Shown: piece by piece, positions 45,755-53,475 of the stretch
Layout: every line of letters begins with the position of its first letter
How positions within the stretch are numbered: position 1 is the stretch's first letter
Assembly (NCBI GenBank): GCA_014695345.1
Contig: JACJOC010000087.1
Coordinates: 124,001 to 188,000, forward strand
Source: Cyanobacteria bacterium FACHB-471
Lineage (GTDB): Bacteria > Cyanobacteriota > Cyanobacteriia > Elainellales > Elainellaceae
Length of the DNA: 64,000 nt
Direction: 5' to 3'
Position numbers and translations under genes: made by a program
Notes under the pieces: model-generated
Seen by the model: only the letters and a program-made list of their open reading frames with translations
Database searches by the model: none
Told to the model about the DNA's origin: nothing

Positions 45755-45930
45755 TGATTTAAAGGTGAAGTTTTGGTTTGGATAGACCCGTTATATTGCA
45801 ATTCATCTGTATCTAAATCTCCTAATCACTGATGTAAGCAGCAGCAAAACCACGCTCGTACCCGTTCGAAAAAAGCTTATTGGTATAGAAGGGTTGCTTT
45901 TGCCTACTTTGCTAATTGTTTGCTAATCGC

Positions 45931-48900
45931 ATGACGCAGCACCAACAGGCAGAACTAGAAATGAGGCGATGGAGTCAACTGCTTCAGGGCGTTGCGCGAG
46001 CCACTAACCAGCTTCTAACCAGCACAAACTATAGCCTGGCGCTCGACGAAGCCTTGCAGATTCTTGGACAAGCTGCTGAGGTTGACCGGATTTGCATTTT
46101 TGAAAACCACCTGGTACCGGGTAAATCATCGCTACATACCAGCCTTCGCCATGAATGGACGCAAGATCCTAGCTTGGCTCAGTTAGGCAACCCGGCTCTA
46201 CAAAATTTGCCCTACAAAGAGTCCTGCTATTGGTACAACACACTGCACCGAGGCGAGACGATCGCCACTCTGGTTAGAGATTTACCATTCCCTGAACAGT
46301 CCCTACTGAAAGCACAGGGCGTTTTGTCTATTCTAGTGGTGCCCATTCTAGTCAACGGCAATTTCAATGGGTTTATTGGCTTAGACGATTGCCATTCTGA
46401 GCGTCAATGGTCTGAAGCCGAAGAATCTACTCTGCTAGCGTTGGCAGGAGGAATTGGCGGCGTTTTAGAGCGACGACGAGCAGAAGCAGAACTGCAGCGT
46501 CAGAATCAGCGATCGCAGCTCCTCGCAGACATCGCCCTCCGTATTCGTCAATCGCTTAACCTGGAAAAGATTTTGACCACTACTGTAGCCGAGGTCAGAC
46601 GCTTCCTTCGGGCTGACCGGGTACTGATGTATCGCTTTGAGCCTGATTGGATGGGCAGGGTCGTGGTTGAATCAGTAGAACCGCCGTGGACAGCTGCGCT
46701 AGGCGAATTGATTGAAGATACCTGCTTTAAAGAGGGGCAGGGCGAGCAATACCATCAAGGGCGAATTTGGGCTGCTGACGACATCCAGCAGGCAAACCTG
46801 ACCCCTTGCCACTTCGCCTTGCTAGACCGCTTTCAGGTACGGGCAAACCTAGTGGTGCCAATTCTTGCTAGTCATCAGCTTTGGGGCTTGCTGATTGCTC
46901 ATCAGTGTGGTCAACCTCGCCAATGGCAGAGCTTTGAAGTGGAATTTTTAGGACAGCTTGCTAACCATGTAGGCATCGCAATTGTTCAGGCACGGTTGCT
47001 GGCTCAAGAGGTGCAGCAGCGGCAGCAGCTTGCACAACAAAACCTGGCGCTAGAGCAAGCTCGCAAAGAAGCAGAGCAAGCCTCTCAAATGAAAAGTGCA
47101 TTTCTGGCGATCGTCAGTCATGAAATTCGTACACCCATGAATGCTGTTCTAGGCATGACCGGTTTGTTGCTAGATTCTCAGCTCAACCCTGAACAGCAAG
47201 ATTTCGTAGAAACGATTCAAATGAGCGGTGACAGTCTGCTGATGTTAATTAATCAAATTCTAGATTTCTCCAAATTAGAAGCTGGAGAAATGGAGTTAGA
47301 AGTTTTAGATTTTGATTTAAAGAACTGTGTTGAAGAAGTTGCTGAACTTTTGGCAACCAAGGCACACGAAAAAGGAGTTGAAGTTGCAACTTTAATTTAT
47401 CGCAACGTGCCAACTTATCTACGCGGTGATGCCAACCGCCTGCGGCAGATTTTGACCAATTTGGTTAACAATGCAATCAAATTTACAGATGTTGGAGAGG
47501 TCGTTATTCAAGCGGCATTAGTAACAGAAACACCGTCTTCGGCAACTGTCATGTTTTCCGTCTTTGATAGTGGCATTGGCATTGCGCCAGAATCTCAGGC
47601 AAGGCTGTTTCAGCCCTTTTCTCAAGTCGATGCTTCAACGACTCGCAAATATGGAGGAACGGGGCTGGGATTAGCAATCTCCAGACAGCTTGTGGAATTG
47701 ATGGGTGGACAAATTGGGCTGGAAAGTACTTTAGGGCAAGGGTCAAAGTTTTGGGTTTCACTTACGTTTGATAAGCAGATTATTCCCCCTGTTCCGCCTG
47801 TCGCTAAAGAAACGATTCAAGTGTTGAGTGGGTTAAGGCTGCTGATTGTTGATGACAATGCAACCTATCGCAAAATTTTGCGCTATCAAGCAATGGTTTG
47901 GGGAATGCAAGTGACTGAGGCTGAGAGTGCGGCGATCGCTCTGCAACAGTTGCGTCAAGGTGCTTTATCTGGTGCTCCCTATAATCTGGCACTCTTAGAC
48001 ATTCAGATGCCAGAAACAGATGCAAAATCACTAGCGCAACAAATTAAAGCTGACGCTACTTTGGCAGATACCCACTTGGTTATGATGATGACCTCCGTTG
48101 ATTTGGCGTCCGGTGTCCATCGGGCATTAGAACTCCATTTTTCTGCCTATCTAGTAAAACCCGTGAGACAATCACGGCTTTTGGAATGTTTTCTATCTCT
48201 TGCCTCTGACAGTCTTGCCAGCACCGAAAATCCACAGGGAATTACCCAGGAGACACCGCCAGAGCGTCCAGCCGCCGTATTGCCTGCTGAATCTAACCTC
48301 AAAATTTTGTTAGTCGAAGACAATGTTGTTAATCAGAAGGTAACGTTAAAACAACTCAACAGTTTGGGATTTAAGGCAGATTTAGCTGCTAATGGTCAAA
48401 CAGCTATAGAGGCGATCGCTCAGATCGATTACGATATCGTTTTGATGGATTGCCAAATGCCCATACTGGATGGATACGAAGCAACTCGCCTGATTCGTAA
48501 AATGGAGCAGGAAAGGCTAACTCAACGTCAAACCGTGATTATTGCAGTTACTGCTAATGCGCTTCAAGAAGACCAGGAAAGGGCGATCGCCGCTGGGATG
48601 GACGATTACTTGAGCAAACCTGTACGTAAGGATGTATTAGCCGCCATGTTAGATCGTTGGGGAAAAGCCATTCTGACAGATTCAGCTGCCCTGCAAGATC
48701 AGTCAACGACGCCCGATGCGGCGCGTGATGCCCTTAACACTCAACTCAACTGGAAGCATCTGCATCAAATCTCTGACGGCAACCGCGAATTTGAACTGGA
48801 GCTACTACAAATTTTTGTTGAAGACAGCCAAATTCACCTTGAAACATTGAAAGGGGCGATCGCTAATCAAGACCTGTGGCAAGCTGAACAGGCTGCCCAT

Positions 48901-49068
48901 CACATTAAGGGAGCCAGTGCTAACGTGGGTGCCAAAATCATGCAGGCTGCTGCGGAGCATCTAGAGCAGCAGGCTCGCCAAAAACAGCTTCAAACCCCTG
49001 AGCGTTTTCTAGCAGAAATTGAACTGTCTCTTGACAAAATTCGAGCCTTCGTCGAAGCCAAAATCTGA
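45931..49068 (+). CDS. Hybrid histidine kinase with DXCF cyanobacteriochrome GAF
   Basis: A 1045-aa multi-domain sensor. GAF1 spans about 25-185. GAF2 (about 205-365) carries Cys265 in IEDTCF and Cys293-His294 in TPCHFALL, then [11 protein letters not shown]. That is the DXCF cyanobacteriochrome signature with the 28-residue spacing of TePixJ. HisKA has His397 ([10 protein letters not shown]). The HATPase has the N-box NLVNNAIKF and DSGIGI, GGTGLGL. REC1 has LLDIQMP, REC2 LMDCQMP, and the C-terminal Hpt [12 protein letters not shown]. All phosphotransfer residues appear intact. ATG 45931 is chosen over TTG 45916. It probably senses light and relays phosphate to a receiver such as the REC-PP2C protein at 49.7 kb. 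Confidence 0.9.
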
Positions 49069-49090: not shown

Positions 49091-49522
49091 TTAAGCAGAG
49101 GCGCTAAAATTCTTCGCAATAAGCAAACAGTTTCGGCGATCGCCAGTTTGGGTATAGGTAAGTGAATCTGATAGTTGTTGCATCAACTTTAAGCCTCGTC
49201 CTCCTTCTGCATCAGAATCGACTTCTAGCGGCATCTGGTTTAATTGTTGGTTTAAATCAAACCCTGATCCAACATCCCAGATACGAATCTCCAGTAGTTG
49301 GTCAAACAAGGTAATTTCTATATCGATCGGTGTCTCTTGAGGAGCGTTTTTATGGGCATGGCGCACTGCATTTGTAAAACCTTCTGCTAGAGCTAACTGG
49401 CACTGTAGCCAGATCGAGGGTGGAATAATAGCGCTGTTAAACTGATCAAACCAACACAGAATTTGAGTCAGCGCACCAAGATCTGTATTAACTTGAAGAT
49501 GTGCCTGTTTAACGACTTCCAA
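49091..49522 (-). CDS. RsbW-type serine kinase / anti-sigma ATPase
   Basis: A stand-alone HATPase_c_2 domain (about 144 aa). The N-box AEGFTNAVRHAHKN, G1 IRIWDVGSGFD and G2 EGGRGLKLMQQL are all good, so ATP binding is expected. In partner switching it phosphorylates the STAS protein. TTG 49522 is chosen because AGGA lies nine bases upstream and the paralogue at 1390 aligns from there; TTG 49564 would add 14 residues. Its stop is 22 bp from the hybrid kinase stop, and it is divergent from the REC-PP2C gene. The STAS partner is at 50.9 kb. Confidence 0.9.
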   Translation of the reverse strand: MEVVKQAHLQVNTDLGALTQILCWFDQFNSAIIPPSIWLQCQLALAEGFTNAVRHAHKNAPQETPIDIEITLFDQLLEIRIWDVGSGFDLNQQLNQMPLEVDSDAEGGRGLKLMQQLSDSLTYTQTGDRRNCLLIAKNFSASA

Positions 49523-49641
49523 CTGAAAACATCCTGATATTAAAAAAATGTCTAATGCTGACAACGTGGCATTTCGTAATGTGTATAGTCTTGCAAAATC
49601 AAACCTTAAACATCAACTCGGAGCGCTATACGTTAATGATC

Positions 49642-49734
49642 TATAGCAATCCTAAATGGATTGTGAGAGGCACACCTCTGAGAAACGCGCTTCTCACAAA
49701 TCACTTATCTCACACTTGATTTAGGACTGCTATA
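49642..49734. repeat. 93-bp palindromic element overlapping a start codon
   Basis: Terminal arms TATAGCAATCCTAAAT / ATTTAGGACTGCTATA differ at one position. An inner pair GATTGTGAGA / TCTCACAAATC is nested within. The right end supplies AGGA (49723-49726), seven bases before ATG 49734, and the last A of the element is the A of that ATG. It therefore appears to provide the ribosome site of the phosphatase gene. The layout is that of a cyanobacterial MITE-like element. Confidence 0.75.
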
Positions 49735-50864
49735 TGGCACAAATATTAGTTATTGATGACGATCCTATTATTAGATTAATTTTAAGAAAATCACTCCAAG
49801 GTCAAGGGCATACTGTTACAACAGTGGACAATGGTGAAGCTGGGTTAGAGCAGGCACAAAACCTCCACCCAGCATTAATTATTTGTGACTGGATGATGCC
49901 CGGAATTGATGGGCTGGAAGTTTGTCGGCAGGTCAAGTCCAACTTAGAGCTTTCCACAACATTTTTTATCCTACTAACCGCCCGCGGTGCAACAGCTGAC
50001 CGTGTTCAAGGTTTGGATACAGGTGCGGATGATTTTCTCGCTAAACCAATTGAGCTGACCGAGCTACAGGCAAGAGTGCGGGCTGGACTGCGATTACACC
50101 AGCTTACCCGTGACCTGCAAACCCAAAAACAGCTTCTAGAGGCAGAATTAGCAGAGGCAGCCGAATACGTACGATCGCTGCTCCCTGCTCCCTTGGTCGG
50201 CAAGATTTCTATCGATGCCCGGTTCATCCCCTCTCGCCAGCTGGGGGGAGATTGTTTTGACTATTTTTGGCTCGACCCAGACTATCTAGTCATTTATCTA
50301 CTCGATGTTTCAGGACATGGATTAGGAGCAGCTTTACCGTCAATCGCAGTATTAAATTTGTTGCGATCGCAGTCCTTACCCAATGTCAACTTCTACCAAC
50401 CCCATGATGTTCTTCGAGGGTTAAACGAAACCTTTCAAATGAATAGCCAGAACGAGAAATACTTCACGATTTGGTACGGCGTTTATAATCAGGCTAAACG
50501 TCAGATGACCTACGCGAGTGCTGGACATCCACCCGCAGTTTTGGCATCTAACACTGAAAATGGAGCGTTAGAAGTTCAGTTGCTCAAAACTCCAGCGCTA
50601 CCGGTCGGCATGTTAACGGACGTTTCCTTTACAAGTAGCCGTTGCGAGATTCCAGTAGGCGGTAATCTATATGTGTTTAGTGACGGCGTTTATGAAATAC
50701 GTCAAACCAATGAAGAAATCTGGGGACTAGAGCCGTTCATTGATTTGCTAACCAAGCAGGGAAATACTTCTAACCTGGATGAACTGTTAGAAACAGTTCA
50801 TTTGCTCAGCAACGAAGCAGCCTTTAATGACGATTTATCCCTACTTAGAGTTCGTTTTGATTAA
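49734..50864 (+). CDS. REC-PP2C phosphatase (RsbU/SpoIIE type)
   Basis: A 376-aa protein. The N-terminal receiver (1-120) has VIDDDPIIR, the phospho-acceptor in ICDWMMPGIDG, LLTARG and the FLAKPIEL lysine. A helical linker follows (QTQKQLLEAELAEAAEYVRSLLPAPL). The PP2C/SpoIIE domain (about 165-376) keeps the metal aspartates in GGDCFDYF, LDVSGHG, FSDGVYE and NDDLSL. It should dephosphorylate the STAS protein when its receiver is phosphorylated, releasing it to bind RsbW. AGGA lies seven bases before the ATG, inside a palindromic repeat. Its stop is five bases from the convergent STAS gene. Confidence 0.94.
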   Translation: MAQILVIDDDPIIRLILRKSLQGQGHTVTTVDNGEAGLEQAQNLHPALIICDWMMPGIDGLEVCRQVKSNLELSTTFFILLTARGATADRVQGLDTGADDFLAKPIELTELQARVRAGLRLHQLTRDLQTQKQLLEAELAEAAEYVRSLLPAPLVGKISIDARFIPSRQLGGDCFDYFWLDPDYLVIYLLDVSGHGLGAALPSIAVLNLLRSQSLPNVNFYQPHDVLRGLNETFQMNSQNEKYFTIWYGVYNQAKRQMTYASAGHPPAVLASNTENGALEVQLLKTPALPVGMLTDVSFTSSRCEIPVGGNLYVFSDGVYEIRQTNEEIWGLEPFIDLLTKQGNTSNLDELLETVHLLSNEAAFNDDLSLLRVRFD

Positions 50865-50869
50865 TCTGC

Positions 50870-51205
50870 CTAAAGTGAATTAGTACAAGTCGTTAAGACT
50901 TGCTGGTTAAACTCTGCTCGATCTGTAAATACCTCAAACACTCGATCCATACTGGTGAGTTCAAATAGCATTTTCACCTGATCATTGATTGAGCAGATGT
51001 AGAGCTTGCCGCCTGCTGCTCGAACTGTTTTAAGTGCGACAACCAGCGCGCCTAAGCCTGAACTATCAACAAACGTTACGTCTTTCAGGTCGATCAATAC
51101 AATTCCTGCGTTTTGTTCCACTACATCAGCAACCTCGCGTCGAATTTCGGTTGCTTTTGTGCTGTCTAGGATGCCAGCAGGCTGTATCACTTTGATAGTT
51201 TTCAT
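50870..51205 (-). CDS. STAS anti-sigma factor antagonist (RsbV type)
   Basis: A 111-aa STAS domain. The phosphorylatable serine motif is FVDSSGLGALV (Ser48/49). MKTIKVIQPAGILDSTKATE and VLIDLKDVTFVD are standard strands. It would be phosphorylated by the RsbW-type kinase at 49.1 kb and dephosphorylated by the PP2C at 49.7 kb. It is convergent with the PP2C gene, five bases apart. The downstream target freed by the switch is not identifiable here; no sigma factor lies nearby. Confidence 0.94.
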   Translation of the reverse strand: MKTIKVIQPAGILDSTKATEIRREVADVVEQNAGIVLIDLKDVTFVDSSGLGALVVALKTVRAAGGKLYICSINDQVKMLFELTSMDRVFEVFTDRAEFNQQVLTTCTNSL

Positions 51206-51699
51206 GGCTTATGTCCAAGTGCGGCGTTGGATGAGGGCTACTACCTCTTCATACTGCCCACATTGCCTCTAGCTCTAACGTGTGAGAACGCGATAGCCAT
51301 GCATGAAAAACTGAAACAGAAACTGCAAAACAGGTGACGTTGGGGTAAAACACCTGCTATGAATTGGGAAACAACAGTAGTCCTGTCGCCTTGAAGTTAG
51401 TGCTTTCCTATCCTAAAAATTGCTGGGTGCTGTTTTTATTGGTGCAAGCCCAGCTCAAGCTGACAAAGATAAAAGTTTTAGCGAAGTTTTAATCTTCGTC
51501 TTGTACTCTACTTGCAACCCCCATCAGTGTCTTAACCGCTAAAAATCCGGATTTGGATCACTCATTGAGGGATGGTAACAAAGCAAGGGGCTTAAAAATT
51601 TCTATATAAGTGCCCGAGGGAACTGCAAATTTAACCGCAAACCGAGAAATTTGTGAAATCCCAAGACACCGTACACTAAATTTTGCGGACGCAGTGCAG
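51206..51699. other. Divergent intergenic region with probable mrdA promoter
   Basis: No gene is seen. Near the right end CTATATAAG (51602-51610) resembles a -10 element. That makes the in-frame GTG at 51610 an unlikely translation start and supports ATG 51700. The left end should carry the STAS promoter. Confidence 0.45.
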
Positions 51700-53475
51700 A
51701 TGGCTAGTGGAATTTCTTATGCATCCGATAGACGCTCTGCCAAAACTTCCCTGCTGCGATCAGCCAGCCGGGATAAGTTGGTATGGCGTGGAGTATTTTT
51801 AATGCTTTTTACGACTGCAATCATGAGCGCATTTGTGGTGCGTCTCACCCATTTGCAGTTAGTTCAGGGCGAGTTTAACCAGCGCCTTGCAGAACAAAAT
51901 CGAGTTCGACTGATCCCGATTCCTTCTGATCGAGGCAATATTACTGATCGCGACGGGAAACTGTTTGCAGCCAACCGGTTGGCCCGTTCGGTATATCTTT
52001 GGCCGCGTCAACAGTCACCCGAACAGTGGCAGGTGACGGCTTCTCGCCTCAGCCCGTTATTAAATACGCCAGCCGCAGAAATCATTGAGCAACTGGAGAA
52101 GGCGGGCTACAACTCACCGATGCCTGTCCGCATTACTCAGCAACTCAATCAAAGTGCGTTTGTCGCTTTGGCTGAGCAGTCGGCTCAGTTTCCTGGTGTA
52201 GAAACGATCGCCGAGTCGAGTCGCTATTATCCTCATGGCGATTTGGCAGCTCACGTGCTGGGCTACATTGGCGAGGCGACTGAGGAGGACTTGAAGGAGA
52301 ACCCGGATTATCCCTATGGCATGATCGTGGGGCAAATGGGGATCGAGCGGTTAGCCAACGCTGAGCTAGACGGTCGCTGGGGCAGTCGTAAGGTTGAGGT
52401 GAATGCACGAGGGCAAGAATTACGCTGGATGGGTACGGACCCTGCTGTGGCAGGTAATCAGGTGCGGCTAACGCTGGATTTGGATTTACAGCAGACGGCT
52501 GAGCGAGCGCTTGCTCAACGACGAGGGGCAGTGGTGGTAATGGATGTAAAAACGGGGGCAGTGCTGGCGATCGCTAGCGGTCCTAGCTTTGATCCCAATA
52601 TCTTTACCCGTCGCGTTACAGAGTCAGAGTGGCAACAACTCAACGGAGAAAGCCAGCCGTTCTTAAATCGGGCTTTACAGGGTTACCCTCCTGGCAGCAC
52701 CTTCAAAATTGTTACAGCGGCGGCGGGATTGCAGTCGGGCAAATTTTCCCCAGACTCTATCGTGAATACCTACGCTTCGATTAACGTTGGCGGCACTGTT
52801 TTTAACGAGCATAGCGGCGGTTATGGTCCGATTGGGTTTCGCAAGGCGATGGCAGTTAGTAGCAATACCTTTTTCTACCAGGTTGGCATTGCTGCTGGAC
52901 CAGAGCAAATCGCGCATTGGGCAGAAGCTTTAGGAGTTGGGATCACCGATTTGGGGCTAGATGGGGGCAGCCGAGGATCTGTGCCTACTCCAGAGCAAAA
53001 GGAGGAGCTGTATGGCGAACCCTGGTATACGGGCGACACAGTAAGTATGTCTATCGGTCAAGGTTTGGTGCAGGTTACACCACTTGAGATGACAGTTCTT
53101 GTGTCGGCGATCGCTAATGGTGGCTGGCGGGTCAAACCTCATCTGCTGAGCAATCAAACTGAAACAATGGCCAACGAACGGGTTGAAACGGGGCTGTCTC
53201 CAGAGAACATTGAAGCTATTCGAGTGGGACTGGTCGCAGCCGTGCAGGAAGGAACTGCTCGTCGGCTAAATGATGGTTCTATTCCTTTGACGGCTGGCAA
53301 AACGGGCACTGCAGAAGTACCGGGTCAAAAAGACAATGCGGTATTCGTAGGCTATGGACCAGTGGATGATCCCCAGATTGCGATCGCAGTAGTCGTTGAA
53401 AATGGTGGTTTCGGTGGGGTAACGGCTGTCCCGATTGCACACGAAATCTACAAAACCTACTTTGGACAGCGCTGA
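51700..53475 (+). CDS. mrdA: Penicillin-binding protein 2 (elongasome transpeptidase)
   Basis: Class B PBP of the lateral wall synthesis machinery (591 aa). One N-terminal membrane helix (about residues 30-50) leads into the pedestal domain (IPSDRGNITDRDGKLFAANR). The transpeptidase motifs are PPGSTFKIV (SxxK), VSSNTFFY (SxN) and TAGKTGTAE (KTG). ATG 51700 is preferred; GTG 51610 overlaps a TATA-like promoter element. A 25-bp perfect hairpin follows. No rodA or mre genes are adjacent. Confidence 0.95.
   Translation: MASGISYASDRRSAKTSLLRSASRDKLVWRGVFLMLFTTAIMSAFVVRLTHLQLVQGEFNQRLAEQNRVRLIPIPSDRGNITDRDGKLFAANRLARSVYLWPRQQSPEQWQVTASRLSPLLNTPAAEIIEQLEKAGYNSPMPVRITQQLNQSAFVALAEQSAQFPGVETIAESSRYYPHGDLAAHVLGYIGEATEEDLKENPDYPYGMIVGQMGIERLANAELDGRWGSRKVEVNARGQELRWMGTDPAVAGNQVRLTLDLDLQQTAERALAQRRGAVVVMDVKTGAVLAIASGPSFDPNIFTRRVTESEWQQLNGESQPFLNRALQGYPPGSTFKIVTAAAGLQSGKFSPDSIVNTYASINVGGTVFNEHSGGYGPIGFRKAMAVSSNTFFYQVGIAAGPEQIAHWAEALGVGITDLGLDGGSRGSVPTPEQKEELYGEPWYTGDTVSMSIGQGLVQVTPLEMTVLVSAIANGGWRVKPHLLSNQTETMANERVETGLSPENIEAIRVGLVAAVQEGTARRLNDGSIPLTAGKTGTAEVPGQKDNAVFVGYGPVDDPQIAIAVVVENGGFGGVTAVPIAHEIYKTYFGQR

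Follow-up and report, generated by a model that had tools for sequence, protein, structure and literature searches.

The window, by which we mean the whole 64,000-nucleotide stretch of DNA that was analyzed, comes from an assembly of 7.15 Mb in 118 contigs. It contains a hybrid histidine kinase gene that is adjoined by genes for a REC-PP2C phosphatase, an RsbW-like kinase, and a STAS protein (Table 1). The expected motifs are present in the kinase, its receivers and HPt domain, and in all three of the partner-switch proteins. Residues are numbered here from the listed TTG start, in the translation of positions 45916 to 49065, although an alternative ATG start is possible at 45931 (M6), five codons after the TTG. 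The sequence-only reading had numbered the two cysteines discussed below 265 and 293; these are the same residues as our Cys270 and Cys298, and the difference of five fits counting from that ATG. Its extent for the second GAF domain, 46540 to 47030, was right, with Pfam model PF01590 spanning residues 215 to 356. Among the NCBIfam matches listed, 25 of 156, no model scored over its own cut-off for the kinase. By its HxxKG pattern, His995 is presumably the phospho-site of the HPt domain.

Table 1. Features of the hybrid kinase and of the adjoining partner-switch genes, in window positions.
Feature	Position	Strand	Remarks
Hybrid histidine kinase gene	45916..49068	+	1050 aa; GAF1-GAF2-HisKA-HATPase-REC-REC-HPt; TTG start as listed
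GAF1	46039..46449	+	
GAF2, cyanobacteriochrome domain	46558..46983	+	Residues 215-356; Pfam GAF (PF01590)
DTCF motif	46717..46728	+	Residues 268-271; Cys270 (codon 46723-46725), expected second, reversible bilin cysteine
Cys298-His299	46807..46812	+	Cys298 (46807-46809), expected canonical bilin-attachment cysteine; His299 (46810-46812)
HisKA	47089..47286	+	Phospho-acceptor His402
HATPase_c	47425..47769	+	N, G1, and G2 boxes
Receiver 1	47833..48190 (end approximate)	+	Asp695
Receiver 2	48304..48651	+	Asp845
HPt domain	48799..49047	+	
RsbW-like GHKL kinase	49091..49564	-	157 aa; HATPase_c_2
REC-PP2C (SpoIIE/RsbU-like) phosphatase	49734..50864	+	376 aa; REC Asp52; proposed phosphoryl receiver
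STAS anti-sigma-antagonist-like protein	50870..51205	-	111 aa; DSSGLG motif

The two GAF domains of the kinase differ in their relatives. GAF1 carries the second Cys-His pair of the protein (residues 159-160) with no DXCF partner, and a query with kinase residues 1 to 191 found no PDB relative for it at an E value of 0.001, so it was dropped as a bilin domain. GAF2 matched 99 PDB sequences at an E value of 0.001 or below in a phmmer search. The highest scores were for 6oap (175 bits), which we take to be PPHK, and miRFP670nano (154 bits), then its variant, NpR6012g4 (144 bits), RcaE (8k9o; 140 bits), and TePixJ (3vv4; 136 bits). An AlphaFold2 model of GAF2 built from 36 sequences had a mean pLDDT of 87.5 and a pTM of 0.84, and its 11 best Foldseek matches include 6oap (E value of 2.3e-22), miRFP670nano3, 3w2z (AnPixJ), and TePixJ (4fof; rmsd of 1.5). 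PPHK and miRFP670nano are thus the best PDB matches in both sequence and fold, but they have DQYF and DRYF, respectively, with no second cysteine, unlike GAF2.

The TePixJ GAF, a DXCF domain of the blue/green type with phycoviolobilin, shares 71 of 150 aligned residues with GAF2. GAF2 keeps TePixJ residues D492, C494, F495, Y503, G506, R507, C522, H523, N535, and I551, with the two cysteines 28 residues apart as in TePixJ, whereas P493, W499, and Q526 are replaced by T269, Q275, and L302. In TePixJ the bilin is held by C494 and C522 and surrounded by D492, H523, Q526, and N535, according to PMC6955287. The protein contexts also differ, TePixJ being a chemotaxis-type receptor and the GAF2 protein a hybrid kinase. 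A structure-based comparison with known cyanobacteriochromes had been proposed as a check, and the predicted fold, with cyanobacteriochromes as its best matches and most of the TePixJ pocket residues kept, agrees with that class. GAF2 has both a canonical cysteine followed by histidine (Cys298-His299) and a second cysteine within an Asp-X-Cys-Phe motif (DTCF, residues 268-271). Judged by its sequence and predicted structure, GAF2 is a cyanobacteriochrome domain with both bilin cysteines. It is one more photoreceptor of a class that is already large and well known, and with 109 GAF matches in its own assembly (Pfam), it is one sensor among many in that genome.

The 28-residue interval between Cys270 and Cys298 was seen in the translation just as the sequence-only reading had described it. 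That reading held that the spacing and the pair of cysteines made chance unlikely; the spacing is set by the fold and was rejected as independent evidence, while the retention of the cysteines does count. Both cysteines are intact in the window and in its two congeners, and they are kept in 22 of the 23 GAF sequences of the clade described below. We also compared 28 distinct GAF sequences of the same genome, found at an E value of 1e-12 in the loci where the 30 highest-ranking of 62 family-model matches lie. Both cysteines occur in 10 of these (GAF2 included), the canonical one only in 4, the second only in 2, and neither in 12, a co-occurrence with a Fisher P value of 0.006 that is indicative only, since the sequences are paralogues. 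Two GAF sequences of this assembly, L133 (residues 157-323; contig C99) and L137 (residues 155-323; contig C63), have DPCI or DACI with no canonical cysteine, and each adjoins a DPCF/CY domain in its own protein. In this they resemble the DXCIP type, which is described in PMC6628166 as having no canonical cysteine.

The kinship of GAF2 was examined in a midpoint-rooted, and thus undirected, tree of 72 GAF sequences. Fragments of fewer than 125 residues, exact duplicates, long-branch non-bilin GAF domains, and sequences of the category "other" beyond a random 24, with more of that category, had been dropped beforehand. The tree includes a congener sequence (L046) and two sequences of L244, two other L244 sequences without both cysteines having been left out. 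The labels Tlr0911, Tlr0924, and Tlr1999 are presumably right; they follow from position and length within a genome that has a 100% identical TePixJ GAF. GAF2 fell in a clade of 23 sequences (support of 95/89) that holds none of the reference proteins used and is joined to a clade of 14 holding RcaE (37 sequences together; 99/95). TePixJ lies in a separate group of 8 (92/92). The XRG domains and PPHK fall in other parts of the tree, as do the remaining Thermosynechococcus DXCF domains.

Topology tests, with groups defined after a first tree had been viewed, rejected a single clade uniting the GAF2 group with TePixJ and the four own-genome sequences closest to TePixJ (P-AU of 0.0135; 0.0076 in an earlier 69-sequence tree) and a single clade of all 55 dual-cysteine sequences (P-AU of 0.00029; 6.6e-8 in the earlier tree). 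A TePixJ lineage for GAF2 was therefore discarded. A clade of GAF2 with the XRG domains was not rejected by these tests (P-AU values of 0.167 and 0.207 in the two trees, respectively), but membership by motif was, as GAF2 has the DXCF cysteine and is missing the four-residue insert that carries the XRG tryptophan in AnPixJ (WXDXXL). Placement outside the cyanobacteriochromes had been named as a result that would speak against the assignment; by PDB matches, Foldseek, and the tree, GAF2 is closest to known cyanobacteriochromes. The term "TePixJ-type" held for motif and likely chemistry, but not for descent, the nearest structures being 6oap and miRFP670nano. DXCF motifs occur across lineages according to PMC11284453 as well. 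Together with the rejection of a single dual-cysteine clade, this makes the motif a good indicator of chemistry, yet not of descent or exact color. Among 388 genomes of the class, the best matches to Slr1393g3 stood at 93% and 91%.

The pigment should be at hand. The assembly has one ferredoxin-dependent bilin reductase match, to PcyA (366.5 bits against an NCBIfam cut-off of 206), and one heme oxygenase match by Pfam, with none for heme oxygenase in NCBIfam; phycocyanobilin should therefore be available and is the expected chromophore. It would be bound by Cys298 and perhaps be partly or wholly isomerized to phycoviolobilin. In an XRG domain, three positions have been connected with the formation of phycoviolobilin, and a Val-to-Thr change at the place of GAF2 Thr269 lowered that formation (PMC11284453). 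The residues of GAF2 at these positions are Ile266 (its number obtained by counting backward from the Asp), Thr269, and Ile327, and those of TePixJ are Ile, Pro, and Ile, two alike and one not. In typical DXCF domains, the second cysteine bonds bilin C10 in the dark state and the photoproducts absorb from teal to orange (PMC6628166). In GAF2, Cys270 would similarly bond C10 in the dark, and light would isomerize the C15=C16 bond, after which the second bond would break and a longer-wavelength form arise. From this cysteine chemistry, the dark state likely absorbs blue or violet light, and the other state may absorb green, teal, or orange; since kinship with TePixJ is not supported, colors are extrapolated across lineages.

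We consider that GAF2 probably binds a bilin and uses both cysteines in doing so. Points against this are Thr269, Gln275, and Leu302 in place of the TePixJ residues, and the absence of any reference protein from the GAF2 clade. A sensor linked through Cys298 only, in which Cys270 forms no stable adduct and green to red light is absorbed, would fit the nearest solved relatives, 6oap and miRFP670nano, which have no second cysteine, and Thr269, which is as in AnPixJ. It would also fit the clade joined to that of GAF2, where RcaE (8k9o, 7ckv) is a green/red type with CL in place of CH and no DXCF cysteine. We regard this as unlikely, given that Cys270 stands in all but one of the 23 clade members, in a motif that forms an adduct in TePixJ (PMC6955287). 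Far less probable still is a degenerate GAF with no bilin, serving as a dimerization or relay domain. One relative, L233, has lost both cysteines and yet keeps the kinase and its linkage, and 12 of the 28 own-genome sequences have neither cysteine, but the window and both congeners have both, the pocket residues are kept in the window, and the pigment genes are present.

Proceeding from a bilin-binding GAF2 with two working cysteines, its light-driven change could pass through a helix to HisKA and alter kinase activity, and phosphate could then move from His402 through Asp695/Asp845 to His995. A protein ending in an HPt domain should need a partner receiver, and the hybrid kinase, which ends in one, should thus need a receiver outside itself. 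The REC-PP2C protein next door would be the best candidate to receive the phosphoryl group; it would dephosphorylate the STAS protein, which would then be free to bind the RsbW-like kinase. The kinase and RsbW genes are convergent in the window and so do not form one operon. The gene order GH100-HK-RsbW-REC-PP2C-STAS-PBP2 is kept in both congeners, two Leptolyngbyaceae metagenome assemblies of the same genus. The PBP2 (MrdA) gene, at 51610 to 53475 in the window, also follows the switch genes in a number of relatives' loci.

The linkage of kinase and phosphatase was followed in the best 80 of at least 546 confirmed loci of relatives, with 6-kb flanks, contig ends hiding some neighbors (L069 is cut). 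The seeds of the search alignment (A1) all had both cysteines, and the scan patterns lay outside the cysteines. In 24 of the 80, the kinase core reached 60% identity or more; a REC-PP2C gene lay in the fetched stretch of 9 of these 24 and of none of the other 56 (Fisher P value of 5.6e-6, kinship ignored). Seen from the phosphatase side, in 63 REC-PP2C loci (60 picked from the top of the listing and 3 of the same genus), an RsbW or STAS match occurred in 53 and a kinase-core match in 11. The kinase adjoins REC-PP2C in the three loci of the genus and in genomes G050, G003, G053, G058, G008, and G055; the kinases of L213 (44%) and L232 (32%) are less similar and lie further off. The remaining 52 have no kinase-core match in the fetched stretch, some of which stop at contig ends. 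Among 60 genomes, 32 kinase cores of at least 60% were listed (two of them fragments), and 10 of these, in nine loci, adjoin REC-PP2C or, in G052, RsbW only; six cores without fetched flanks were judged by contig and position. Linked kinases of 54 to 59% also exist, at three loci of G041 and one of G055, which counts against a strict 60% rule. In a kinase-core tree, one clade of 29 sequences (SH-aLRT of 100) includes the window together with 13 of 14 distinct linked loci, the exception being L244. The linked kinases of L244 and of the three G041 loci are less similar, and linkage extends beyond this clade.

From this gene linkage and by analogy with the HptB chain of Pseudomonas aeruginosa, we propose, with confidence somewhat short of even, that light controls phosphotransfer to REC-PP2C and hence the partner switch. 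In that chain, as PMC6482189 describes it, hybrid kinases feed HptB, and the HPt protein acts on a REC-PP2C protein, HsbR, that sets the phosphorylation of an anti-sigma antagonist, HsbA. The HPt protein is separate there and HsbR has its own kinase domain, whereas the window has a fused HPt domain, a gene of its own for RsbW, and a cyanobacteriochrome as sensor. For the coupling speak the adjacency of the genes, the fused HPt domain, and loci with REC-PP2C a short distance downstream of the kinase and in the same orientation (37 bp in L049, 76 bp in L326, 85 bp in L233, and about 20 in L244; 403 in L053). It is a real possibility, which we would put a little under an even chance, that the kinase does sense light yet passes its signal to a different receiver, and that the REC-PP2C linkage is an inherited neighborhood without function. 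The convergent genes of the window, the 22 of 32 listed kinase cores that lie away from switch genes, and the linked kinases without a bilin GAF are in keeping with such a neighborhood and count against tight coupling; linkage in several genera, the co-directional pairs, and three neighborhoods of kinase and REC-PP2C in one genome (G041) weigh against it.

If the kinase does feed REC-PP2C, light would become a defined input of cyanobacterial partner switches, and pathways without known upstream components would have a candidate sensor and a candidate phosphatase. Synechocystis Slr1861/Ssr1600/SigC (PMC12329169) and Nostoc HmpU-V-W (PMC6495340) have an RsbW-like kinase and a STAS antagonist as the window does, a likeness by protein type; PMC12329169 states that the Ssr1600 phosphatase is unsolved. 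HltA, a high-light tolerance protein, is an RsbU-like PP2C of cyanobacteria, with a GAF and not a REC domain before the PP2C (PMC9430166). Novelty, if anywhere, would lie in the proposed coupling to the partner switch: in the titles and abstract openings of the literature searched, the full texts of which may differ, no link of a cyanobacteriochrome to partner switching, an anti-sigma factor, or PP2C was seen.

Six linked kinases that were scanned all have HisKA, HATPase, HPt, and one or more receivers, but they differ in their sensors, which are GAF, PAS, CHASE, or CHASE3 domains. Light is not a fixed input, as some linked kinases have no dual-cysteine GAF. None was found in L239, and in L233 (genome G053) the GAF domain belongs to the GAF2 clade but has DPSF and AY in place of both cysteines, an apparent loss of bilin binding at a locus that is otherwise kept. 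Nostoc and Calothrix kinases (L113, L114, L059, and L121) have a core of the window's clade and a GAF from another clade, and such combinations, as in Nostoc L113 and L114, suggest from sequence comparison that sensors have been exchanged among these kinases. We offer tentatively that the hybrid kinases, many with their own dual-cysteine clade, may serve as an interchangeable sensory input to a REC-PP2C/RsbW/STAS switch that is widespread in cyanobacteria and in which light color would set anti-sigma antagonist phosphorylation. The three neighborhoods of G041 (L326, L327, and L328) are separate from one another, and in L327 RsbW is also adjoined by a kinase whose GAF has DTFF and CH.
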